A stretch of DNA of 44,062 nt, taken from the IMG/VR virus record IMGVR_UViG_3300027902_000014, positions 1 through 44,062 of that record; one strand, written 5' to 3'. The position numbers and the translations under genes are program-made. This document shows, in pieces, positions 9,522-31,856 of the stretch; positions within the stretch are counted from its first letter, which is position 1; each line of letters begins with the position of its first letter. The notes under the pieces were generated by a model. It had not been told where the DNA came from and made no database searches. It was given only the letters and a program-made list of their open reading frames with translations. Origin of the DNA: a virus.

Positions 9522-10547
9522 TTACATTATCTTTAATCTAGTTAGTGCAGATAAACTTGTATATAGATTCTCTTTTACTTTCTGAGCTATCATTTCTAAA
9601 GTTAAGTTTTTGCGTAAGAAAACTTCATTGATATCAACCTTTTCCTCTTTATTTTTCCATTCTTTAGGCCAACAAAAAACCAATTCCCCATTTTCAGCCC
9701 ATTCTATTGCTTTTAATATCCCTGTTTTATCATAATCAAACACCCAACCTCGTTTTGGAAATTTATCATATATCTCATGAAATTTATCTCCACCATAACT
9801 AATAGTACCAGAAGTAGATATCCCATTGTATAAAAACATACTATCTATTGGTCCTTCCGTTACTAAAACTATTTCTTCTGGATTAACATCATAATAGTTG
9901 TAAATCTTAGGATTAGTTCTATTCCAGGTTTTATATTTTGGAGTTTGCCCATCAAATAAAGATCTTCCTTGAAAAGCATACATCAAACCTGTTGTATCAT
10001 AGAACGGTATGATTAATCTTTTCTCAAAATTTTTGTTCGAATCATGATTGATTTGTTCATAACACACCAAGAAATCTACATAGTATTCTTTTGGAATTTT
10101 TCTTCTTAGTACTTCTTTTAATGCTCGATACTGTAACTGTTTTAATGCTATACTTTTGATATCTTTGTCAAATAGATGAAATGATACAGGAAGGATGTCA
10201 GAAGATACATCAACCAAATCACTTTGTTTGACCTCTTTTTCTTCTTCAACCAATTTAGCTTTGATATCAAGATTAGTTATTGCTTTATTGATATCCTTAT
10301 TCCTAAAATATTTACTCCATATTGAGGGAGCTAATTCTTTAACAAATCTTGAAAAAGATAATGAAGCAGTACAATTAAAACAATAATATGTAATTATATT
10401 TCCTTTGAAAAGAATCCAACCTCTTTTTTTAATTTTACTCTTTTTACTATCACCACATAAAACACATCTACCATTTAGATTTTTTCCTGTTTCTCGAAAA
10501 TCCAAATTCATCTCTTTTAATATTTGTTTTACTATTAATCTATCCAT
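9522..10547 (-). CDS. 61: DNA primase gp61
   Basis: 341 residues from the ATG at 10547 (T4 gp61 has 342). The N-terminal zinc ribbon reads RCVLCGDSKKSK ... YYCFNCTA. The Toprim core follows: LVTEGPIDSMFLYNG (catalytic Glu) and WVFDYDKTGI (the Asp pair). FYDTTGLMYAFQGRSL lies between. It makes RNA primers with the gp41 helicase. The start is uncertain: 10547 overlaps the end of the GIY-YIG gene by 8 bases, while 10589 would add 14 residues. The natural RBS may have been rebuilt by insertion of that endonuclease gene. Confidence 0.9.
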   Translation of the reverse strand: MDRLIVKQILKEMNLDFRETGKNLNGRCVLCGDSKKSKIKKRGWILFKGNIITYYCFNCTASLSFSRFVKELAPSIWSKYFRNKDINKAITNLDIKAKLVEEEKEVKQSDLVDVSSDILPVSFHLFDKDIKSIALKQLQYRALKEVLRRKIPKEYYVDFLVCYEQINHDSNKNFEKRLIIPFYDTTGLMYAFQGRSLFDGQTPKYKTWNRTNPKIYNYYDVNPEEIVLVTEGPIDSMFLYNGISTSGTISYGGDKFHEIYDKFPKRGWVFDYDKTGILKAIEWAENGELVFCWPKEWKNKEEKVDINEVFLRKNLTLEMIAQKVKENLYTSLSALTRLKIM

Positions 10548-11178
10548 TCTTCTTTTTGATAATAGGAACTCTTCCCCTATTCCATCCATTTTGTAAATAT
10601 TGATCTAAATATTCAACTTCAATAAATTTTCCTTGTTTTATTTTATTATTATAAATTGCTATTTTTCCTGTTTTACTTTTTCTCATTTTATCTATTAATT
10701 CTTTAGATACAGTATGTCCCATTCTTGATTTACTTATTTTATCACCCCAATTATGTGAACTTCCTCTTCTTTTATCATGTAATTTTCCTAAAATTTTATC
10801 TTTATTTGGATGATTACTTAAAGTATTACCACCAGTTCCACCATCAGTATGATTAAACAATGAGCCTATTCTTAAATCTTTTCTACCAATTGTTTTAATT
10901 AAAGTAATCTCATATTCTTTAGCTACTTCATCAGTTACATTATCTAAAACTTTAATAATATATTCTTTCAAATTATAGTTTAATTTTCTTATATTTTCTA
11001 GATATCCATAAAACTGTTTATTATCTCCCTTTTTTATTTTGTATTTAAGATGTACAAAACATCTGAAACCTTCACCTTTACCTACATATCTAGGTTTATA
11101 AAAGAAAGTAATTAAATTACCATAAGTATATCTTCCTGAATACCTAGGATCTAAATAAATATAAGTATAATATCTCAT
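10540..11178 (-). CDS. GIY-YIG homing endonuclease (intact)
   Basis: 212 residues. The catalytic domain starts RYYTYIYLDPRYSG and has RYVGKGEGFR in place of YIG plus Arg, then a conserved EITLIKTIGRKDL and LFNHTDGGTGG. The C-terminal part carries NUMOD3-like DNA-binding repeats (GDKISKSRMGHTVSKELIDK) and the NGWNRGR tail seen in other endonucleases of this phage. It is free-standing, not in an intron, and inserted directly upstream of primase with overlapping ends. Such genes cut the cognate site in related phages and spread by repair. Confidence 0.85.
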   Translation of the reverse strand: MRYYTYIYLDPRYSGRYTYGNLITFFYKPRYVGKGEGFRCFVHLKYKIKKGDNKQFYGYLENIRKLNYNLKEYIIKVLDNVTDEVAKEYEITLIKTIGRKDLRIGSLFNHTDGGTGGNTLSNHPNKDKILGKLHDKRRGSSHNWGDKISKSRMGHTVSKELIDKMRKSKTGKIAIYNNKIKQGKFIEVEYLDQYLQNGWNRGRVPIIKKKNG

Positions 11179-11547: not shown

Positions 11548-12005
11548 AATCTCCTCTCCAAAGATTTCTTCAAATGTGCTTCTATCTCTACTGATGCATC
11601 CACTCTTGAATCTTCATATGGATAATAAGTCCAACAATCAGTTGGTATATTTTTTTGTTCAACTAGATAATAAGGCATAAACTTGGCATGTTCTTTTCTA
11701 TGTAAACAAGCTGTTCTAAAAATAATCCTTCTATCAAAATCATCTGCAAAATTGATAAAGGTTTGTCCAGTATCCACAATTTCATCCACAATAAGGTACC
11801 TATTCACTTTATCAACTATATATGGTTTGATTTCAGTCAAAAATTTGATATTCAATAATTTAGATAAAAAGAAAGCTATAGGAGTTCCTGCAGTTGGTAT
11901 TCCATACACAAATTCAAATTGATCTTCTGTATCATGAATATTTGCCGCTAATTCTAGAATACTATTGATATACTCATTCCAACTAATATATCGCTTACTT
12001 GGCAT
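11544..12005 (-). CDS. Type I phosphoribosyltransferase domain protein
   Basis: 153 residues with the PRPP-binding loop RYLIVDEIVDTGQTF (hydrophobics, two acids, then DTGQT) and an upstream GIPTAGTPIA loop typical of type I PRTases. These transfer phosphoribose to a base; stand-alone phage versions probably salvage purines or pyrimidines. It overlaps the gp59-like gene by 11 bases. The substrate cannot be told from the sequence. Confidence 0.78.
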   Translation of the reverse strand: MPSKRYISWNEYINSILELAANIHDTEDQFEFVYGIPTAGTPIAFFLSKLLNIKFLTEIKPYIVDKVNRYLIVDEIVDTGQTFINFADDFDRRIIFRTACLHRKEHAKFMPYYLVEQKNIPTDCWTYYPYEDSRVDASVEIEAHLKKSLERRL

Positions 12006-12609
12006 TATTTTTTAACTCCTTTACTATTTGTTCTAGTTCATATTTAAAGAATATAGTATTCTTATCTATAAAAATCAATTTTTTATCAAGATCCAGTAGT
12101 TCCATTCTTAAAATTACTTTCATACATTTCTTTTGCATTGGAGTTAATGTATCTAAAACTTTAAGATAAAGTATAAATTCAAAAGGAATTTCTTTTGTAG
12201 ATATATAATGTTCTAGAATTCTAGGATATCTGCTTGGAGTTCCTTCTATATATTCATTCCAAGTTTTCAGCTCTTTCTTTTTCATATAATCTCGAACCTT
12301 AAACCAAAAAGAGTTAAGTTCTATAGTACCTTCTTTCAAATAATCATCAATATATTTGTGTAAACAAAGTATAGAAACCTTATCATATTTTGAAAAACAC
12401 CAAGTTAGATATTTTCTAAATTCCTCCATAGAATCTTTTAATTTATGAAAATGAGTCTCAGAAAAGTTAATTAGATATTCTTCAATTCTCTTATTATCTA
12501 ATTCTTTCTTTCTAATGTGAGTATAAAAGTTATGAAAATATTTGTTGTAGATCTGAATATATGAGTTGTAAAATGTTAATGGGTCAAAGACTTGTTTACG
12601 ATATGTCAT
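11995..12609 (-). CDS. Probable helicase loader gp59-like, 204 aa
   Basis: An all-helical basic protein the size of T4 gp59 (217). Segments such as TFYNSYIQIYNKYF near the N-terminus and FEFILYLKVLDTLT further on resemble the T4 pattern weakly. Stronger support is context: it directly follows a gp33-like gene (ATGA overlap), the same 33-then-59 order as T4. gp59 loads the gp41 helicase onto gp32-covered DNA. In T4 gene 32 follows; here it lies 10 kb away. Sequence support alone is modest. Confidence 0.48.
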   Translation of the reverse strand: MTYRKQVFDPLTFYNSYIQIYNKYFHNFYTHIRKKELDNKRIEEYLINFSETHFHKLKDSMEEFRKYLTWCFSKYDKVSILCLHKYIDDYLKEGTIELNSFWFKVRDYMKKKELKTWNEYIEGTPSRYPRILEHYISTKEIPFEFILYLKVLDTLTPMQKKCMKVILRMELLDLDKKLIFIDKNTIFFKYELEQIVKELKNNAK

Positions 12610-12899
12610 ACAAAATATTCTTCCATTGAACTCATACCTTTTTTCTCGGCAGATACTTTTTCAAGAAGCTTAGTCTTTGTAAGTACTAATAATAAATCAA
12701 AATCAAAACTATTGCAAATTTCTACAATACTATCATATAAACTTCCAAAGTGTATACCTACTTTTACAAAGAATAGTTCAATCTCTTGTTCTTGAATTGG
12801 AGTCAAATCTGTAGAATCAGTCAAATCAATAATATACTGAATCTCCTCTAACGAAGTTATTTCCATCAATTTTTTCAAGAAAAGAATATCAGTTTTCAT
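12606..12899 (-). CDS. Probable late-transcription coactivator gp33-like, 97 aa
   Basis: A small helical acidic protein. The segment GSLYDSIVEICNSFDFD followed by LTKTKLLEKVSAEK parallels the T4 gp33 core (SYLEA ... E-N-S-I ... IIEKI-x-SEA) in spacing and hydrophobic pattern. The C-terminal MEEYFV could serve as the short acidic-hydrophobic clamp-binding tail found in gp33. In T4, gp33 bridges gp45 and host RNA polymerase with gp55. The ATG at 12899 has GAGG 6 bases upstream, inherited from the tail of an HNH relic. Identification is by pattern and synteny. Confidence 0.48.
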   Translation of the reverse strand: MKTDILFLKKLMEITSLEEIQYIIDLTDSTDLTPIQEQEIELFFVKVGIHFGSLYDSIVEICNSFDFDLLLVLTKTKLLEKVSAEKKGMSSMEEYFV

Positions 12900-13070
12900 A
12901 CTCTTCCTCTTTCCCAACCTTTATTTATCCAATTAATTAACTAAATTAATTTTATCATTACTACCACCTAGAGACCTAGGAATAATATGGTGTCTATCAG
13001 TTTCAAATTTTATTCTTGAATAAAATAGAAACTTATCAATTATTTGATTGTATACTTTATAATAATTCAC
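12896..13070 (-). pseudogene. HNH homing endonuclease relic
   Basis: A GTG at 13070 begins MNYYKVYNQIIDKF, the typical start of free-standing phage HNH endonucleases. It continues ETDRHHIIPRSLGGSNDK (the HNH first histidines and the N-side motif) and then hits TAA at 12933 after 45 residues, before the last catalytic His. Just after, in another frame, comes NWINKGWERGRV and a TGA, the same tail motif (GW..GR) that ends the two GIY-YIG genes here. So only the two ends of a once longer gene remain, with the middle deleted. Its TGA overlaps the ATG of the gp33-like gene. Confidence 0.65.
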
Positions 13071-13914
13071 AAATATATTCCACTATTTTTTCAATCTCAT
13101 CATCATTTTTTACTATAACCCCTCCTGCATGTTTGTGACCCCCGCCCCCAAATTTTTCTAATGCTACACTCAAATCTAATTTACTATCTTTTTTAGACCT
13201 AAAACTCAATGCGCTATTTTTAGAATTATATACTATTACTAATTCCATATTATGTAAATTAATTATGAAATCTGCAACCTCATCAATATCTCCGCTTGTA
13301 GCTATAAATGCCACTTCATCTGCAATCTTTTCATATTTCAAATTTTTCAATAATATATCAATTTCTTTTTGTTTTGCTACTAAAAACCTTCTTTCAGCTT
13401 CTAAAAGAGTTCCATCATACCCATGACTAAAACGAATGAAAAAATCTTTGAACCAATAGAAAAAGAATAGACGATTTAAATGTTTTGAAGTCTTATACTG
13501 ATGAGTCCAAGTATCATAATCTTCTCCTAACATTTTTAATTTCTCTAATGATCTTGAAAATTTATAACCTTTACTTTCCAAATAATTATAAACTAAAGTA
13601 CAAGCAGCTCCTTCATTAGTTTTTAGTATTTGTTTCTGTATTCTTGAAGGAAACTTTCTTTCATGATGATCTATAATAAAAATATTTTTCTTAGTTTCAA
13701 TACTTGGTATAATATTTTCATCCTGTATTGATATATCTGTGATAAAGAAAAAATCTTTATCATTATAATAACGTTTAAAAACATCATCTACGTTACGATA
13801 AGTTACTGGTAACTTTTGGAAACCACAACCTTTACTGATAGCAAAATTATATAATAAAATAGCACATATAACTCCATCAGTATCTTTATGTGTTATATTA
13901 ATTATATTTGTCAT
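13057..13914 (-). CDS. DHH-family phosphoesterase
   Basis: 285 residues with the DHH metal motifs: HKDTDG (His9, Asp11, Asp13), FITDIS (Asp60) and IIDHHE (Asp82, His83, His84), then a DHHA1 domain ending in the substrate-binding GGGGHKHAGG. Family members are nano-RNases, RecJ-type exonucleases or cyclic-dinucleotide phosphodiesterases. At 285 residues it is nearest to the NrnA type, so degradation of short oligonucleotides or of a cyclic-dinucleotide signal is possible. The latter would matter for anti-defence, but the sequence does not decide it. Confidence 0.82.
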   Translation of the reverse strand: MTNIINITHKDTDGVICAILLYNFAISKGCGFQKLPVTYRNVDDVFKRYYNDKDFFFITDISIQDENIIPSIETKKNIFIIDHHERKFPSRIQKQILKTNEGAACTLVYNYLESKGYKFSRSLEKLKMLGEDYDTWTHQYKTSKHLNRLFFFYWFKDFFIRFSHGYDGTLLEAERRFLVAKQKEIDILLKNLKYEKIADEVAFIATSGDIDEVADFIINLHNMELVIVYNSKNSALSFRSKKDSKLDLSVALEKFGGGGHKHAGGVIVKNDDEIEKIVEYICELL

Positions 13915-14571
13915 GTTTACTCATTTTATGTATATTTAAAATAATTTTAGATATCTTTCTTCCTTTAATCCATCCACTTTTTATATAGTTATCTAAATCT
14001 ATTACATTAATTAGTGTTTCTTTTTGTAAACTAAAGTTACTTATCCAACAAAGGTTATAATTTTTTGGTTTACTACTTGATTCACTCATTTTCTTTTTAG
14101 TTTCTTCTGTATGTTTTTTACCTTCGAAACCACCTTTTCTACCTTTTAATGAATTACTTCTTTTTTCTAAAAATTCATTTATATTTTTCCCTCCCCATCC
14201 TCCTACTTGAATATTATATATTTTATCTTTTTTATTTTTTATAAAATCTATTGATAATATTTCTTTTTCCATTTTAGATAACTCTTCTATATTTTTACAG
14301 AAAAATAAAATCCTTCTATCAAAATTCTCTATACCATACTTTTTAATAGATCTTTTTAAATAACTTCCTGATCCTAAATATCCATCATTTAAATTATTAG
14401 TTTGATGCATACCTATATATAACTTTTATTAGTAATCAAATTTTTTGTTTCATAGATAAAATAATATGGTTTATTCTTTGGTAAATCTAAATCTATAGAC
14501 ATCCATTCTCTATATAAATCATTAAAATCAATTATTTTATCATCTATCTCTTTTTGATAGTTATATGTCAT
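13898..14571 (-). pseudogene. GIY-YIG homing endonuclease split by a frameshift
   Basis: Frame one starts at ATG 14571 (TAATG overlap with the mazG stop) and encodes 52 residues ending YYFIYETKNLITNKSYI, the GIY strand and start of YIG, before TAG at 14413. The second frame continues G-MHQTNNLNDGYLGSG and runs 170 residues to 13898 with the Arg/Lys helix (SIKKYGIENF), the Glu helix and a C-terminal GWIKGR tail. Removing one TA from the TATATATA run at about 14414-14421 joins them into a complete family member of about 224 residues. As written, the catalytic Tyr strand is cut off and the enzyme should be inactive. Confidence 0.82.
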
Positions 14572-23191: not shown

Positions 23192-23442
23192 AATTGATCA
23201 CAAACTTGAAATTTAGCAAACTTCTCCCTATCTCTAAATGCCCAATTTGGGGAGCCATGAACTCCAAAAGATTCACCTTTATGATTTTTACATCCTTGAT
23301 TTGAACAATACCACCAGTAATCATCATTTGGATGTAAATCTACCATTTCATCATTTACACAACAATCTATAATTGGCCATCCACAATCAATACAAAATAC
23401 ATCATCTACAATTTTGGCAGTATTTAATCTTTTAGCTATCAT
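23188..23442 (-). CDS. Cys-rich zinc-finger protein, 84 aa
   Basis: Cysteine-rich: FCIDCGWPIIDCC and WYCSNQGCKNHKGES, giving two probable zinc sites, followed by aromatic and charged residues (NWAFRDREKFAKFQ). Not recognised. Its ATG overlaps the stop of the membrane/HTH protein (ATGA). Confidence 0.65.
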   Translation of the reverse strand: MIAKRLNTAKIVDDVFCIDCGWPIIDCCVNDEMVDLHPNDDYWWYCSNQGCKNHKGESFGVHGSPNWAFRDREKFAKFQVCDQL

Positions 23443-24368
23443 ATAAATTCCTTAAAAGGGTCTATAATTTCTTCTTTTGGTTTTCTTCTCTTCTTTTTCT
23501 TTTTAATAACTATAAGTTCCTCTTCCTCTTTTGGTTTTTCTTTTAAACCTTTCAATTTTATTTTCTTAGAAATTCTACTGAGTTGACCATTTATAACTTG
23601 TTCACTTGTGCCAAGAAATTTTGCCATCTCTTCAACATCAGTTGTAACATTTTCTCTTGTCATCAATATTACTTTTTGTTTCAAAGACAAACTTGACATT
23701 CTCTTTATTTGATTAGAAACTGCAACAAATATTCCTGTTTTCTGAATCATCATTCCTGCAGAAAAGAATAAAAATGAAGGGGCAAATACAGCAGCTAAAG
23801 ATATGAAAATAGAAAATATTAGAATAGCTACTTTATCAGTAACATGAAGAATAGAACTGATTACTTCAATTATTGAATGTAATTCTAATGTGGTTGATTC
23901 AGTTCTTTTATCTGTTTTATCTTGTTGTTTTTGAAGCTGACCAATAATTTTTGAAATATTTTTTGATGAAACTTCATCTCTGTTACCTAACTTTTCTACT
24001 ACATTTGCTATAACTTCTTCTGACTTAGAACTTTTACTTGATAAATTTTTATTTATGGACTGTTGTTCCAAAACAACATAAGATCTTTTGGCATACATAG
24101 ATGTAACTGTAATGAGTGAAACTCCAAACAATATAACAAGGAACAAAAGTGTAATAACTCTATGTATCCTAGTTATTTTTACACCTAACAAAAATGAAGA
24201 AATAACAGCCAGAGGCTCTATTGTTAATGCTCCAAACTTAGATATCCCTAATTGATCTAAAAATTGTCCTTGAATACCTGTAACCCATACAACAATACAT
24301 GTTCCAAGTGTTAAACATATTATCATAATCAATATGTTCAAAAAGGTTTCTATTTTATTTTTATTCAA
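23439..24368 (-). CDS. Membrane protein with C-terminal HTH-like domain, 309 aa
   Basis: Three N-terminal hydrophobic segments within the first 90 residues (FLNILIMIICLTLGTCIVVW, LAVISSFLLGV, VITLLFLVILFGVSLI). A soluble Ser/Lys/Gln-rich coiled stretch (about 105-165) follows, then a further segment AILIFSIFISLAAVFAPSFLF. The C-terminal domain (LSLKQKVILMTRENVTTDVEEMAKFLGTSE ... described by position about 225-270) reads like a winged or sigma-4-type HTH, and a poly-Lys/Arg/Glu tail ends it. The start was set at TTG 24368 (GGAG 6 bases upstream) rather than the GTG at 24380 without RBS. Its RBS lies inside the 40-bp repeat at the end of dpdA. Function unknown; possibly a membrane-tethered regulator. 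Confidence 0.65.
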   Translation of the reverse strand: MNKNKIETFLNILIMIICLTLGTCIVVWVTGIQGQFLDQLGISKFGALTIEPLAVISSFLLGVKITRIHRVITLLFLVILFGVSLITVTSMYAKRSYVVLEQQSINKNLSSKSSKSEEVIANVVEKLGNRDEVSSKNISKIIGQLQKQQDKTDKRTESTTLELHSIIEVISSILHVTDKVAILIFSIFISLAAVFAPSFLFFSAGMMIQKTGIFVAVSNQIKRMSSLSLKQKVILMTRENVTTDVEEMAKFLGTSEQVINGQLSRISKKIKLKGLKEKPKEEEELIVIKKKKKRRKPKEEIIDPFKEFI

Positions 24369-25605
24369 AGAACTCTCCACTATTAGCTACTTTTGTATTA
24401 TCAGGAGTTTCTTCTATAATATGTTCCTCTGGAGTTCTACTATCATAATCAAAGAACTCTCCACTATTAGCTACTTTTGTATTATCAGAGAATCTTGTTC
24501 CTGAAATTTGAATTTGTTCAACTGGATTTTTAACATCAAATGCTTGTCTAATAACTTTTAAATTTTTAACAATACTATTTGGAAAAAGGTTATAAATTAG
24601 TTCATCATTATTTGTATCAATAATTCTTTTAACTATTTCAATATAGTTCTTAAAGAATAATATATTATGTAATGTAAGATGTGCATATGCTCTTGAATTC
24701 CAAACAAATATATCATTCGTAGTTAAATTTTTACATACATCACAAGTACATGGTAGTTTAGCTTTTATACTAAAATTTGGAGTCTCCCCCTCTTTAATTC
24801 TAAATTTATTGGTATAAGAAATACACTTAAAACTTTCAAAATCATGACTTATATAATACCCACCAAAGGCAGAGTTTTTAGAAGGAGAACTTGAATCTGA
24901 TGTTAATATAATTTTGATTCCTTTTAGCCTTTCCAATAAGCTACAAAAATAAACCAAATAAATGAACATATTTGGTTTTGATGTGCCAAATAAATGAAAT
25001 AATTTATTTGACTTCTTCCCCATTTCACCTTTCATATATAAAAAGAATAAAGCCTGCAGTGATAATGAAGGATCAGCCCCAATTGAACCAATTGCCCATC
25101 CATCAAATTCAAAACCTTTTACTTTATCATACCATTTATTCCAATTCCCTATATTTCTTCCATGAAGAACATTTAAATACTTTGTTTTACCTGAACGATA
25201 TTCATCAAAATATTTAAAATTATTATAACTTAATTGTAATGATTCATCAAATACTGAATCAGAAGATCCTTTCAGACTTGAAACGTATGGAGGTATATCA
25301 AGATTTGCCGAAATGTTTGTATTATTTTCTAAGAACTCAAATATCTTTCGCCTATTCTCTTCTGTATTTTCAAGTTTCTTTACTGCAATTTGAAATCCAC
25401 CAGAATCACCAAAATAAATTCCTTTAGAAAAATTGAATCCCATTTTTTGAGCAAAATCTGGAACATCCATAAGATGACCTGCAGAAAATAATATATATGG
25501 ATGATAAAAAGAAGATTCATCTTTATTATAAAATCTAAAATCCGTATTTTTTAATAAACTTAGAGCTGTTGCCCCCACAGATAAAGCCGGAATATAAATA
25601 ACCAT
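24361..25605 (-). CDS. dpdA: DpdA-type DNA guanine transglycosylase (TGT family)
   Basis: 414 residues of the tRNA-guanine-transglycosylase fold. Catalytic and binding residues are in place: GDSGGFQ (Asp67), NLDIPP (Asp103), VLHG (His149), WAIGSIG, and ILTSDSSSP with the probable nucleophile Asp237. The zinc site is CTCDVC plus HNILFF (Cys286, Cys288, Cys291, His313). TGT enzymes swap guanine for a 7-deazaguanine base; phage DpdA relatives do so in DNA. Clustering with QueC, QueE, QueD and FolE in a phage without any queuosine-tRNA need argues for DNA. The C-terminus carries a duplicated SDNTKVANSGEFF motif. TAATG overlap with the Gat-QueC stop. Confidence 0.85.
   Translation of the reverse strand: MVIYIPALSVGATALSLLKNTDFRFYNKDESSFYHPYILFSAGHLMDVPDFAQKMGFNFSKGIYFGDSGGFQIAVKKLENTEENRRKIFEFLENNTNISANLDIPPYVSSLKGSSDSVFDESLQLSYNNFKYFDEYRSGKTKYLNVLHGRNIGNWNKWYDKVKGFEFDGWAIGSIGADPSLSLQALFFLYMKGEMGKKSNKLFHLFGTSKPNMFIYLVYFCSLLERLKGIKIILTSDSSSPSKNSAFGGYYISHDFESFKCISYTNKFRIKEGETPNFSIKAKLPCTCDVCKNLTTNDIFVWNSRAYAHLTLHNILFFKNYIEIVKRIIDTNNDELIYNLFPNSIVKNLKVIRQAFDVKNPVEQIQISGTRFSDNTKVANSGEFFDYDSRTPEEHIIEETPDNTKVANSGEFFE
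24365..24488 (-). repeat. Two 40-bp perfect direct repeats at the dpdA 3' end
   Basis: Copies at 24365-24404 and 24449-24488, 84 bases apart, encode DNTKVANSGEFF twice, separated by an acidic spacer. The promoter-distal copy also contains the dpdA stop and the ribosome site of the next gene. The in-frame period (28 codons) suggests a recent duplication. Confidence 0.9.
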
Positions 25606-27077
25606 TAAATAATTTCTTCCTTTCTATATTTCACAAAAGTATCTTTTACTCCTATTTTCTGAAATGCAATTTTTCTCAAGTTACATGAACTACACTCTCC
25701 ACAATGTTCTTCATAATTATGATAACAAGACCACATTAGATGTAATGGAGCTCCTATACTAATAGCAATTTGAACAATTTCATGTTTCATATAATTCGCC
25801 AAAGTTTTTTCTAACTTTATTGATGTTCCATTCTGTGTGGCATAAGGTATTACACTTTCTAACTTATTCAAAAATTCTATGGTATTATCCGGATATGCTG
25901 AAGCTTCATCCAAATTAGCTCCCATATAAATTTTAGAATATTCAAACTTTTCAGCATAACCAATTGCAAGACTGGTAAGAATCAAATTTCTTGCTGGTAT
26001 CCATTCTAAAGCATATTCAATTCCTTGACTTCCTTTTGATATTTGATTATCATCTCCAGATGTCAAAGGTGATACCAAAATATCTTTGAAAATACTTAAT
26101 GGAATAAAAACATATTTACAATGGAAAAATTCAGCTATATCTTTTACTGCCTTCATTTCTTTTTCTTGTGACAAACCACCATATTGAAAATATAATAGAG
26201 TAATTTCTTCCATTTTTTGTGCAGCAATAGTTGTCACAACTGTAGAATCTAATCCACCAGAACAAAGTATGAGAGATTTATTATTCTTAGGTTTATTGAA
26301 TGATGTTATGTTTGTTATACCTTTTTTAATATCTTCCCATGACATATTCACATTTAGTACTAAATATGAATATGGAGTGAAATCAATAATATTATAATCT
26401 ATAATGTATTTATCTTCCACCAAACTCATTAAAGTTTCTTTTTCTGATGCAAACCAAAGTATTTCATTAGTATAATCAAGCATCAAATAAAGAGGCATAT
26501 AATTCTTAAAAAATACTATATCACCAGAATGTTTAAAATATTGTACACAAGCAAAACTACCAATAATTTTCTTTTCTTTTAATGCCTCTATTAAATCTTT
26601 AACAGTTTTAAAATTTAAAAAAATTGCACTATCAATTTTAATATCTGTTTCTTGATATATCCAGTTTGATACTGACCAATTTTTCTCACCTATTACCATA
26701 TTATTAAACGTTTTATTAAAATCTTTATCGTTTGATATGGTTCCGTTATGAATTATAGTAGAATCTTCACTAGAAAAAGGTTGGGTATCATTAGGAGTCT
26801 TATCTTTTATCCATTCAGAATTAGAGGTTGGTTCAGCCCTCATATTATTCATTAATAGAAATTCTATACCTGTATCAATATAAATATCTTGGAATATTTT
26901 TTCATCTACTTTATCAACAAACTTCGTTAATGTTTCAAAATTAGTAAGTAATTTTTTATAATAAAATCCAAAACTATCTCTACCTCTATTTCTGGCAGAG
27001 TTTAAGAATCTTTCTAACCTAATATGTTTTATTTTTTCTTGTTTACCTGTACAAATAAAACCATTTATACTGCACAT
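25605..27077 (-). CDS. Glutamine amidotransferase-QueC fusion (7-cyano-7-deazaguanine synthase)
   Basis: 490 residues in two parts. Residues 1-250 are a class II (Ntn) glutamine amidotransferase: Cys2 directly after Met, RGRDSFGF (31-38), MRAEPTSNSEW (79-89) and IIHNGTIS (108-115). Residues 265-490 are QueC: PP-loop LCSGGLDST (271-279), MGANLDEASAYPD, and the zinc site Cys451, Cys459, Cys462, Cys465 (CYHNYEEHCGECSSC). QueC turns 7-carboxy-7-deazaguanine into preQ0. The fused amidotransferase could supply ammonia, or use the nitrile or amide to give an amidated or amidino base. Such Gat-QueC fusions are known from phages with 7-deazaguanine DNA. Overlaps the methyltransferase gene by 13 bases. 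Confidence 0.88.
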   Translation of the reverse strand: MCSINGFICTGKQEKIKHIRLERFLNSARNRGRDSFGFYYKKLLTNFETLTKFVDKVDEKIFQDIYIDTGIEFLLMNNMRAEPTSNSEWIKDKTPNDTQPFSSEDSTIIHNGTISNDKDFNKTFNNMVIGEKNWSVSNWIYQETDIKIDSAIFLNFKTVKDLIEALKEKKIIGSFACVQYFKHSGDIVFFKNYMPLYLMLDYTNEILWFASEKETLMSLVEDKYIIDYNIIDFTPYSYLVLNVNMSWEDIKKGITNITSFNKPKNNKSLILCSGGLDSTVVTTIAAQKMEEITLLYFQYGGLSQEKEMKAVKDIAEFFHCKYVFIPLSIFKDILVSPLTSGDDNQISKGSQGIEYALEWIPARNLILTSLAIGYAEKFEYSKIYMGANLDEASAYPDNTIEFLNKLESVIPYATQNGTSIKLEKTLANYMKHEIVQIAISIGAPLHLMWSCYHNYEEHCGECSSCNLRKIAFQKIGVKDTFVKYRKEEII

Positions 27078-27802
27078 AAGTACTCCTCAATTTGTTTAAA
27101 TAGAAGAAAACTTCTATACTCGGTTATTCTAAAATACTTACTACCATCAACATCTAATCTGATTGCACATTCGATTTCATCATTTGTCAAAAAATTCATA
27201 GGAGATACAAAACGGTTACGTAACATTTCTTTGAAAACATCACTTCTGATATTTTTATTATAACTTAGGAAATATAAATCATCAAGTTTATAACCATGAT
27301 GTTTAAATATTGTTAACATTTGTTGATAAGATACTGTTTTCTCTGTTTCTAATAATTTTGGGAATAGTTTAATTATTGTTGTATTTTCCAAATTATCAAA
27401 ATCAGTTGTCATAATTAAAACATTTTTAGCAATAGTATTTAAATCATCAAGTACAGAATGTAAATTAACCCCACCATCTGAAATCAAATGTATAGAAGAA
27501 GAAAAAATTGCAAGATCATACTGTTCTGTGTTTATTTCTGCAAAATGAAAGAAATCTGTATTATAAAAAATACCAATTTTATGATCTATTTGATTGTACA
27601 TCTCTTTACTTTGCTCAACTCCAGACAAGTTACTATACCCCATGTCTTTTAATTTTTTTAATACTCCACCTGAACCACAACCAAAGTCAATTATTTTAAT
27701 ATTTTTTGGAAACTCACTTACCATATCACAGATAATATTATGACCATATCTAAAGTATTCGTTGTACTTTTGTGCTAATACTTGATTGTTAAATGACTTC
27801 AT
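27065..27802 (-). CDS. SAM-dependent methyltransferase (class I)
   Basis: 245 residues. Motif I is IIDFGCGSGGVLKKL, followed by a GVEQSKEMYN segment (acidic ribose-binding position) and LAIFSSSIHLI (motif IV region). This layout suits small-molecule or nucleoside methylation rather than the DPPY-type DNA amino-methyltransferases. It overlaps both neighbours inside the 7-deazaguanine operon (TAATG upstream, 13-base overlap downstream), so it is a good candidate for methylating a deazapurine precursor or the modified nucleotide. The substrate is inferred only from context. Confidence 0.75.
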   Translation of the reverse strand: MKSFNNQVLAQKYNEYFRYGHNIICDMVSEFPKNIKIIDFGCGSGGVLKKLKDMGYSNLSGVEQSKEMYNQIDHKIGIFYNTDFFHFAEINTEQYDLAIFSSSIHLISDGGVNLHSVLDDLNTIAKNVLIMTTDFDNLENTTIIKLFPKLLETEKTVSYQQMLTIFKHHGYKLDDLYFLSYNKNIRSDVFKEMLRNRFVSPMNFLTNDEIECAIRLDVDGSKYFRITEYRSFLLFKQIEEYLCAV

Positions 27803-28743
27803 TAAATGGTCTCCTTTATAATTTCACCCGTTTTCATATTCATATTTATACAATCTTCATCTTTTAAAGCCGTCATAATACCTTTTACACCAATAATACA
27901 AGGAATACCCATTTGCATAGCAACTATGGCGGCATGGCTTGTAACACCACCTTCCTCGCTGGCAAATGCGATAATTGATTTAGCAAAATACTCCACTAAT
28001 TCAGGTCTACAGTTGGGTACAATGATTATTTTACCATTTACATCTTTCTTTGAAAATTCACCAAGTAGTACTACTTTACCTAAAATGAATTCTTGATTTT
28101 TTGAGTTAATAGGTCTACCAATTAATTCAGTTTCTGTTGGCTGTTCAAAATTTCCAATAAAAGGAGAGTTTAATTCAATTTCTTTTATTATTACTTCTTT
28201 CTTTTTATTATTGTATAGTATACGAATACCACCTTCTGATGTCAAATTTTTCTTCTTATATTCTTTCTCCCACTTAAATCTTGTCAATAATCTTAAGAAA
28301 CCTATATAATCAATCAAAGAAATCTTCTTCAAATCTTTATTAACCAGGAATTTCTTTTTTGTTAAAAGTTTAATTTCAATATTCGAGAAAGCTTTCTTAA
28401 GTAAGTATTCCTTTTTCATTTTAAATTTATATGGTGCTACACAACCTTGGGTCAAAAAATATAATTCCAATATTTTGGTTATTTTATTTGATTTTCTAAA
28501 CTTCAAAAAATCAAATAATTTTTTATTATTATAAAGTTTCTTTCCTAACTTCCCAAGATTTTTTTCAGTTTGTTCAGAGTGATAAAAAGTGGTTACATTA
28601 TTTTTTGTTACAAATAGTATATCTAAATTGCATTCAACAAATTTATTTTCTTTGATCATAGAAATAGTATTTTCAATTTGAGTTTTATTCAATCCTTCTT
28701 GTTCCCATTGTTTAATCCAGTTTATCACATGATTCTTTTTCAT
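27802..28743 (-). CDS. PEP-utilizing-type phosphohistidine (swivel) domain protein
   Basis: 313 residues. The C-terminal 110 residues match the mobile phosphohistidine domain of PEP synthase and rifampicin phosphotransferase: FASEEGGVTSHAAIVAMQMG with the phosphorylatable His in TSHAA, then IPCIIGVKGI and MNMKTGEIIKE. The N-terminal 200 residues are Lys-rich and not recognised; an ATP-grasp domain, normally the partner, is not evident. The gene opens the segment methyltransferase, Gat-QueC, DpdA, all with overlapping ends. It may carry a phosphoryl group to a base or nucleotide during hypermodification, or serve as a separate regulatory phosphotransferase. Confidence 0.7.
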   Translation of the reverse strand: MKKNHVINWIKQWEQEGLNKTQIENTISMIKENKFVECNLDILFVTKNNVTTFYHSEQTEKNLGKLGKKLYNNKKLFDFLKFRKSNKITKILELYFLTQGCVAPYKFKMKKEYLLKKAFSNIEIKLLTKKKFLVNKDLKKISLIDYIGFLRLLTRFKWEKEYKKKNLTSEGGIRILYNNKKKEVIIKEIELNSPFIGNFEQPTETELIGRPINSKNQEFILGKVVLLGEFSKKDVNGKIIIVPNCRPELVEYFAKSIIAFASEEGGVTSHAAIVAMQMGIPCIIGVKGIMTALKDEDCINMNMKTGEIIKETI

Positions 28744-28759
28744 AACCCATCCTTTAAGT

Positions 28760-28796
28760 AAAAAATAAGGGGTGCGATATTGTTCGCACCCCTTTC
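28760..28796 (-). terminator. Strong rho-independent terminator after the 66-aa gene
   Basis: An 11-bp stem, AAGGGGTGCGA with TCGCACCCCTT (28767-28777 and 28784-28794) around a 6-base loop, followed on the minus strand by ATTTTTT. It is GC-rich for this genome. It would stop transcripts from the promoter at 29057-29085 and much of the read-through from folE. Confidence 0.88.
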
Positions 28797-30014: not shown

Positions 30015-30773
30015 CTAAACTCCTCTTTTCTTATCCCAAAGAAGTATGTGAACACGTGGACTAAAACTTAAATTGAATCTAATACAAAAATCCATGGTAC
30101 TTTGAAAATTAGCAACATGTTCTTCTCTCGTAATACATTCGGGCATTACGTAAAAATCTGCCCATCTTAATTCTGGATACTTCATAATTTCACAAGATTT
30201 CTTAATAAAATCTAATATCTCAACTCTAGTCTCTGAAAGTCTATCATCTACAAATTTAATTATATAGAAACAAGTTGAATTTTCCAACTTTTTAATATTA
30301 TCAAGAACAATATCATTATATTCATTAAACTGAAGTTTTGGTGAAATATTGTATTGAAATAAGCGGTCATAAGCAGACCATATGATAAATTCTTCTGTGA
30401 GTGGAATTGACCCATTTGTTTCCATTTCATAAGTATTTGCATTTGTTTCTGAATATGTTCTAATTCTGGCTGCTTCAATACATTCTACAATTTCTTTAAC
30501 TTGTTCTTGATAAAGTGTAGGTTCACCACCAGTAAATACTATATTTCTAGATTCATCATGTAAAAGAATAAGTCTATATTTCTCTACAAAATCTTTTGCT
30601 GAATTAAACTCTTCTCTAAGTTCTTTAGATCCTTCCCATGTAAATTTTGAATCACAAAAATTACAATGAAAATTGCACCCAGAGAATCTTATAAAAGTTG
30701 AAACCTTACCAACTGTACTTCCTTCCCCTTGAATCGAAATAAATGGGGGTTCTGCTAAAATAATTTTACTCAT
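30015..30773 (-). CDS. queE: 7-carboxy-7-deazaguanine synthase QueE (radical SAM)
   Basis: 252 residues. The iron-sulfur motif is Cys33, Cys37, Cys40 (SGCNFHCNFCDSKFTW), the CxxxCxxC of QueE. IQGEGSTVG (14-22) is its N-terminal signature and FTGGEPTLYQ binds SAM. It contracts 6-carboxytetrahydropterin to the deazapurine ring. Overlaps the zinc protein upstream (ATGAGTAA). Confidence 0.92.
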   Translation of the reverse strand: MSKIILAEPPFISIQGEGSTVGKVSTFIRFSGCNFHCNFCDSKFTWEGSKELREEFNSAKDFVEKYRLILLHDESRNIVFTGGEPTLYQEQVKEIVECIEAARIRTYSETNANTYEMETNGSIPLTEEFIIWSAYDRLFQYNISPKLQFNEYNDIVLDNIKKLENSTCFYIIKFVDDRLSETRVEILDFIKKSCEIMKYPELRWADFYVMPECITREEHVANFQSTMDFCIRFNLSFSPRVHILLWDKKRGV

Positions 30774-31194: not shown

Positions 31195-31413
31195 CTATAA
31201 ATTATCAAACTCATCTAAAAGTTGTCCTCTTTTATCTTTAAACTCTTTCAAAATTTTTTCTTTAATTTCTTTTTTAGTTTCTTCTGAAATGTTCTCTTCA
31301 AAAATATGTGAAAAAACATTATTTTCTTTGACAGATAGAAGATGTATCTGTCTTTCTATGTTTGATAACAAATTTCTAATTTCATTTGCTCTAATAAAAT
31401 CTTGTGTTTTCAT
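31195..31413 (-). CDS. Helical hypothetical protein, 72 aa
   Basis: A small amphipathic-helix protein (MKTQDFIRANEIRNLLSNIE ...) with a Lys/Glu-rich end. The ATG at 31413 forms an ATGA overlap with the queD stop. Not recognised. Confidence 0.6.
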   Translation of the reverse strand: MKTQDFIRANEIRNLLSNIERQIHLLSVKENNVFSHIFEENISEETKKEIKEKILKEFKDKRGQLLDEFDNL

Positions 31414-31856
31414 TCTGTATATTCCGCCCAACCTGTTTCTGTCTCATGAAATCTTACAGTTAGATTAGCGTAATATGCATTCTTCCAATTTTTATCTATA
31501 GCTCTTCTAATTTGTTTACAAATGAATTTCGCCATATTTTCTGCTGTTGGATTGGAAGGGAAAAGCATTAACTTCTTATTATGCTTTTCTAATGCTTCAA
31601 AGTAATCATAATGTTTTTGTAACATTGATAGAGGCATAATCAAAGCATGATCAAATTGATCAATAATTTCAGTAACATAAGATTTGATTTCACCAAAATC
31701 AATTATCATACCATCACTATTCAATCTATTTGATTGAATCAAAAGTTCAATTACAGCAGAATGACCATGTATTGTTTCATAACAGGCAGAAGAAAAAGCG
31801 GTTTCTAATTGATGAGCATATTCTGCTTTGAATTTTTTTCTTATAGTGAAAGGCAT
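31410..31856 (-). CDS. queD: 6-carboxy-5,6,7,8-tetrahydropterin synthase QueD
   Basis: 148 residues of the PTPS/QueD fold. Zinc histidines are His15 (AEYAHQL), His30 and His32 (IHGHSA); Cys25 is the catalytic cysteine. GMIIDFGEIK, FDHALIM (catalytic Asp-His) and NPTAENMAKF complete the family pattern, with a final VRFHETETGWAEY. It converts the FolE product to 6-carboxytetrahydropterin. First recognised gene of the modification operon behind the promoter at 32092-32119. Confidence 0.93.
   Translation of the reverse strand: MPFTIRKKFKAEYAHQLETAFSSACYETIHGHSAVIELLIQSNRLNSDGMIIDFGEIKSYVTEIIDQFDHALIMPLSMLQKHYDYFEALEKHNKKLMLFPSNPTAENMAKFICKQIRRAIDKNWKNAYYANLTVRFHETETGWAEYTE

Follow-up and report, generated by a model that had tools for sequence, protein, structure and literature searches.

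What is a phosphohistidine swivel protein doing inside a gene set for 7-deazaguanine DNA modification? We asked this of IMG/VR virus record IMGVR_UViG_3300027902_000014, a stretch of 44,062 bases that is analysed here over its full length and called the window. The first-pass annotation of this DNA had placed a stand-alone phosphohistidine domain protein at 27802-28743. These coordinates were exact, and the strand, left unstated there, is minus. The gene and its parts are as follows.

27802..28743, minus strand: swivel protein, 313 aa, made up of a basic N-terminus (residues 1-205) and a phosphohistidine swivel (residues ~205-313) with His270
27805..28131, minus strand: swivel (PEP-utilisers mobile) domain, residues 205-313, supported by PF00391, the structure model and Foldseek/VIA-align
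27934..27936, minus strand: His270 codon; this residue of SEEGGVTSH (motif at 262-270) is the presumed phosphoryl acceptor
28129..28743, minus strand: N-terminal region, residues 1-205, net charge +21, no known family (Pfam, PDB, tblastn, codon usage)

The C-terminal swivel with its TSHAA histidine, as originally described, was confirmed. PF00391 matched residues 236-306 with an E-value of 1.1e-17 (63.8 bits against a curated cut-off of 23.1; E 4.1e-20 in the whole-record search), which rules out a chance similarity to the swivel. The pattern [ST]xxGGxxxH occurs once in the protein, as SEEGGVTSH at 262-270 followed by AAIVA, and this sequence fits the swivel consensus T/SxxGGxxxH given in excerpts of PMC12167813; the protein has no RSS motif. 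Consistent with the earlier statement that neither an ATP-grasp nor a PEP-binding domain is present, PF00391 was the sole Pfam domain of the protein, which ends with the swivel and has no PEP/pyruvate-binding domain after it. A swivel taken whole from a PEP synthase or PPDK was ruled out, since both the ATP-grasp and the PEP barrel are missing. Codon-usage scores in frame 1 were +0.28 for the N-terminus and +0.47 for the swivel, with the remaining five frames negative. Both halves of the ORF are genuinely coding, and a spurious N-terminal frame is ruled out by the codon usage. PADLOC reported nothing for the gene.

An AlphaFold2 model built with 51 swivel homologues reached pLDDT values above 90 across most of residues 221-310, compared with a pLDDT of 32 for a single-sequence model of the protein. 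The top structural matches in Foldseek/VIA-align were the swivels of rifampin phosphotransferase (VIA-align Z 17.8, rmsd 2.7 A over 114 residues), pyruvate kinase, EI and PPDK. The PDB matches listed include the pyruvate kinases of S. aureus and B. stearothermophilus, and the structural matches in BFVD include phage G Gp139. This Bacillus phage G protein (gp139; L309 in our locus numbering, 11881-12978) combines PPDK_N and a swivel in 365 aa, and is labelled a pyruvate phosphate dikinase, yet no PEP-binding domain was found in it.

The N-terminal 200 residues had been called unrecognised, and our searches agree. Residues 1-205 gave no match below E 0.17 in Pfam, none below E 0.35 among PDB sequences and none at E <= 10 in tblastn of phage records. 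Across 398 Bacillota genomes the region had two matches, at E 0.0065 and at E 0.0076; both are interrupted by a stop codon, and we attribute them to chance. When a profile of the swivel protein was compared by hhalign with eight stand-alone PRK08296-like proteins (of 29 loci listed), five PRK05849-like proteins, 12 other Bacillota swivel ORFs (a group assembled as RPH/PEP-synthase-like) and the protein of L005, only the swivel aligned confidently. In the structure prediction and search that had been suggested for this region, the N-terminus resolved to no unrelated system, but the model itself was poor, with pLDDT values of 81-86 for residues 1-30 and mostly below 60 between residue 30 and the swivel. 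In VIA-align, some rifampin-phosphotransferase rows start at residue 170 of this poor N-terminal model, just ahead of the swivel.

The N-terminus carries a net charge of +21 over 205 aa. Its net charge per residue is exceeded in only two of 41 window genes, and these have HTH and GIY-YIG family matches. Such an unusually basic region would fit a contact with nucleic acid. An AT-rich genome favours lysine, and the charge is partly explained by base composition.

The DNA-modification context claimed for the gene was upheld. FolE, QueE, QueD, GAT-QueC and a TGT/DpdA-like protein are all encoded nearby, and, as far as the predicted products tell, the 7-deazaguanine DNA-modification setting is real. 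The surrounding features are listed below.

24361..25605, minus strand: TGT-like/DpdA-like transglycosylase, 414 aa, with DSGGF and CxCxxC (PF01702 E 4e-5, TIGR00432 E 6.1e-9)
25605..27077, minus strand: GAT-QueC (class II glutamine amidotransferase plus QueC), Cys2 kept (PF06508 E 5.9e-52, GATase_7 E 5.8e-7)
27065..27802, minus strand: class I SAM methyltransferase, 245 aa, motif I DFGCGSG (PF13489 E 2.1e-7)
28767..28794, minus strand: intrinsic-terminator-like hairpin, 11 pairs and a T-run, immediately 5' of the swivel start codon
29126..30055, minus strand: FolE, GTP cyclohydrolase I (PF01227 E 8.8e-55 at 129-305)
30015..30773, minus strand: QueE, 7-carboxy-7-deazaguanine synthase, radical SAM (PF04055 E 6.4e-12, TIGR03963 E 3.2e-23)
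31410..31856, minus strand: QueD, 6-carboxytetrahydropterin synthase (PF01242 E 5.5e-25, TIGR03367 E 3.9e-21)

The genes run in the order swivel, methyltransferase, GAT-QueC and DpdA with successive overlaps of 1, 13 and 1 bases, which suggests that the four are translationally coupled. Upstream of the swivel gene lie folE, queE and queD, and since the terminator-like hairpin falls between the swivel gene and folE, the swivel gene probably stands at the head of its own transcription unit; in the scanned stretch, 10 such hairpins were found against 2.4 expected. The DpdA-like protein scored 23.3 bits against PF01702, below the cut-off of 26.3, with DSGGF and CxCxxC kept. The methyltransferase had no phage tblastn match at 1e-5. 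FolE has ~120 extra residues N-terminal to its GTP cyclohydrolase domain. At the other end of the run, an ORF at 23439-24380 shares 20 bases with the end of the DpdA-like gene, and its product looks membrane-anchored N-terminally and, towards its C-terminus, weakly resembles sigma-70 region 4.

A 2023 paper reportedly describes four further 7-deazaguanines. The dG+ operon of phage 9g has the same five enzyme kinds (FolE, QueD, QueE, GAT-QueC and DpdA), and its GAT-QueC and the window GAT-QueC align over their entire lengths (33% identity, 100% query coverage). In phage 9g, GAT-QueC and DpdA put dG+ into DNA (excerpts of PMC6884629). In contrast to the window, the phage 9g record has no swivel by PF00391 search.

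With its ORFs read by eye, the window gene set resembles that of a T4-like phage in character. The nearest cyanophage polymerases share only 34% identity with its DNA polymerase, which points to a distant lineage. GIY-YIG / NUMOD3 homing-type ORFs are present at 10540-11178 and 13898-14410.

We examined how often swivels and deazaguanine genes occur together. Swivel genes linked to deazaguanine phages, which the first-pass annotation had proposed to seek, did not appear: our swivel profile found none within 10 kb of GAT-QueC at the 80 viral GAT-QueC loci listed, and PF00391 found none in 29 whole deazaguanine-phage records, 26 of them hand-picked from those 80 loci (the control, L008, gave one, making 30 records). 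Nor did the profile detect a swivel in the best 80 loci listed with relatives of the window DNA polymerase; this profile recovered L008, a virus outside its training set. The same annotation had held that homologues lying mostly away from que/dpd genes would speak against its reading, and this is where the viral swivel genes were found. A viral scan for swivels gave at least 80 loci, all those listed having a swivel ORF, and a que-like gene lay near the swivel at one of the 80 listed (L270, a lone queE-like hit); applied to the 80 listed GAT-QueC loci, the same que profiles detected folE, queE and queD in 71-73. QueC was absent from 11 swivel-phage records, with both controls positive (13 records in all). 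The original interpretation therefore holds for the domain, the motif and the closely packed operon shared with GAT-QueC and DpdA, but not for the distribution, as viral swivels lie away from que/dpd and deazaguanine phages lack the swivel.

No full-length relative of the swivel protein was found in phages, plasmids, viral scans or 398 Bacillota genomes (E <= 1e-10); in the Bacillota search at that threshold nine matched, through the swivel only. Among 74 plasmid records no match spanned 80% of the protein, and single-protein viral scans with window proteins returned no relative. In phage tblastn the swivel protein had 16 hits, none spanning 80% of the query, and on this coverage they were rejected as whole-protein relatives. 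The six that we examined read as bacterial-type enzymes (a PPDK_N-swivel-GATase protein, a rifampin-phosphotransferase-like protein, a pyruvate kinase, a 520-aa swivel protein, a PPDK-like and an EI-like protein), probably representing host DNA in unverified records. The Listeria phage LM 4-11-1 / LM 4-14-1 and Enterococcus phage records are unverified and hold genes that read as such bacterial enzymes (rifampin-phosphotransferase-like, pyruvate kinase). The 520-aa protein (L005 1747-3306) has a C-terminal swivel as its sole Pfam match, and its first 410 residues had no match in 299 Bacillota genomes in a search run without a positive control. The available portions of the open-licence literature on deazaguanine, phage and related enzymes gave no sign of a swivel-deazaguanine link, and for DpdM/DpdN/DpdL only unrelated work was among the best matches listed. 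Among the records searched, from collections that may omit close kin, the pairing has thus far been seen once.

A phosphohistidine swivel is usually joined to an ATP-grasp. In the 44-kb record, which is possibly a fragment, no PPDK_N/ATP-grasp domain (PF01326) was found up to E 10, in a search that was positive in 13 of 14 control genomes. Separation of the two has viral precedents. Six of the 80 viral swivel ORFs listed are short and stand-alone (109-158 aa stop-to-stop, 105-146 aa from the first start), and at five of these loci (L267, L279, L280, L299 and L302) the same stretch also encodes a separate PPDK_N protein of 238-284 aa (PF01326 E 2e-46 to 1.4e-29). These split phage modules are like the window in having a stand-alone viral swivel, with the PPDK_N gene close by in the modules. 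They differ in that their 105-146 aa swivels lack the basic N-terminus and that their records have no QueC. The short swivel clusters of these five IMG/VR loci and of L238 share a conserved ORF that is SprT-like by eye. A separate PPDK_N was not seen at L238, where a DSPc-like phosphatase, below the Pfam cut-off, lies close by. In Rhodobacter phage RcZahn and Rhizobium phage RHph_TM16 (L312, L313), PPDK-like kinase genes lie near annotated tyrosine phosphatases, an arrangement suggestive of a kinase-phosphatase module.

The bacterial HpeHI, CreHI and PpsAB systems, known as two-component dikinases, place the His swivel on one protein and the ATP-grasp on another, and the activity of HpeH is abolished once its catalytic His is changed (excerpts of PMC12167813). 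As in the window protein, the His swivel in these systems has no ATP-grasp of its own and contains T/SxxGGxxxH, but HpeH is a 71 kDa protein with an RPH-type substrate domain, compared with 313 aa here (same excerpts). Further differences are that the window N-terminus is unmatched to PRK08296-type proteins, that the record has no HpeI-like partner and that two-component dikinases have no known link to DNA modification.

The active site and ancestry of the swivel bear on whether it is catalytic. Based on an alignment of 114 swivels, left after 22 of 136 aligned rows with fewer than 85 filled columns were dropped, the His270 column is H in 112 and the position six residues further on is Arg in 95. 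The window protein has Met276 at this position. The 18 other swivels without the Arg comprise nine pyruvate-kinase-type C-domains, a label assigned by length and two motifs (both in five of the nine, at least one in all nine), and nine PRK05849-type proteins; two of the nine pyruvate-kinase-type domains lack the His as well. Since the Arg is absent, as in the pyruvate-kinase-type domains (two without the His) and the PRK05849-type proteins, the site may not be catalytic. At L186 and L189, the active His of pyruvate-kinase-type C-terminal swivels is replaced by Ala.

The window swivel is 38% identical over 92 residues to that of L002 and 33-35% identical to the pyruvate-kinase-type C-domains, which rank among its closest pairwise hits within the local set. 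In free trees, it groups with PRK05849 on long branches (supports 98/93 and 95/89); a tree constraining it with pyruvate kinases had a slightly higher likelihood and was not rejected (p-AU 0.60). The PRK05849 model NF004508 matched the window protein over residues 220-288 only, scoring 29.1 bits where the cut-off is 501. Two PRK05849-type proteins, L002 and L175, matched this model with E-values of 1.5e-223 or better and the gamma-glutamyl-CDP-amidate hydrolase model (NF045546) weakly, and their sequences suggest that they are relatives, in fused form, of the glutamine-kinase pathway of Cj1417-Cj1420. Proteins of this PRK05849/L-glutamine-kinase-like kind (PPDK_N plus swivel, here fused to GATase) share the absence of the His+6 Arg with the window protein, but the window protein has no PPDK_N. 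Cj1418 is a PEP-synthase-like L-glutamine kinase that phosphorylates an amide nitrogen (excerpts of PMC10971088).

We tentatively propose, with a probability of roughly 0.35, that the swivel protein forms the phosphoryl-carrying half of a PEP-synthase/rifampin-phosphotransferase-like dikinase split over two proteins, and that it has been recruited to modify a 7-deazaguanine side chain. This proposal draws on the swivel and its motif, the fold, the gene run with GAT-QueC and DpdA, the split-carrier precedents and the basic N-terminus; against it stand the lack of recurrence, the absence of an ATP-grasp from the record, the Met at His+6 and the hairpin that separates folE. Phosphotransfer by the protein is plausible on its predicted features. 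A separate ATP-grasp partner, from another part of the phage genome or from the host, would (pyro)phosphorylate His270, and the swivel would move the phosphoryl to a site, within the basic N-terminus or close to it, that holds DNA or the free base. The phosphoryl would then pass to the amide/amidine side chain from GAT-QueC, where it could stay as a permanent mark or serve as a leaving group in a further substitution, and the coupled methyltransferase would modify the same side chain. Phosphorylation of a base in phage DNA has a precedent in the 5hmdU DNA kinase (excerpts of PMC7653180), which differs in acting on a 5-hydroxymethyl group. It is highly improbable that the 7-deazaguanine is P-N phosphorylated in phage DNA by a split-glutamine-kinase-like action of the swivel, with the methyltransferase capping the product to an O-methyl phosphoramidate. 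The O-methyl phosphoramidate idea would connect with the Campylobacter methyl phosphoramidate pathway (excerpts of PMC3907429, PMC6429109).

Possible too, if rather doubtful, is a working phosphohistidine component of a small-molecule kinase that simply shares the deazaguanine operon and serves nucleotide or host metabolism. Known two-component dikinases use free small molecules (excerpts of PMC12167813), the other viral swivel genes are located away from que/dpd (80 loci listed, 11 records), and phage PPDK-like genes lie near phosphatase-annotated and thymidylate-synthase-annotated genes. The overlap of the swivel gene with the methyltransferase gene, and the run continuing unbroken into GAT-QueC and DpdA, speak against this reading. 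The same phosphohistidine chemistry is dispensed with if the domain is a non-catalytic swivel for binding or regulation, as the C-terminal domain is in some pyruvate kinases. We consider this unlikely: the entire SEEGGVTSHAAIVA core is intact, as is His270, though two pyruvate-kinase-type domains have lost the His. It nevertheless agrees with the pyruvate-kinase-type C-domains among the best pairwise matches, the His+6 Arg being gone in both, with a pyruvate-kinase-constrained tree as likely as the free tree and with pyruvate kinases among the PDB matches.

Where the phosphoryl group would come from raises a further alternative, in which the carrier would receive it from the host PTS (EI/HPr) or from a host PEP-synthase-type ATP-grasp and not from a phage partner. 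EI has the same swivel fold (2wqd, Z 15.2, rmsd 2.2, 106 residues), and the absence of an ATP-grasp from the record would agree with a host source. On the other hand, Pfam recognised no HPr-binding helical domain in the N-terminus, and in a record that is possibly a fragment a phage partner may exist beyond its ends. We regard a host-fed carrier as very unlikely.

Even if our preferred split-dikinase carrier acting on the base proves wrong, the window holds a swivel split from its usual ATP-grasp in a type of operon that has no swivel elsewhere among the records searched. A swivel protein inside a base-modification gene set may mean base phosphorylation. If the swivel does act on the base, phosphohistidine chemistry would enter the toolkit of hypermodified DNA, with a testable path to a phosphorylated 7-deazaguanine, and a P-N bonded DNA base, if it exists, would be a new means of shielding DNA from restriction.
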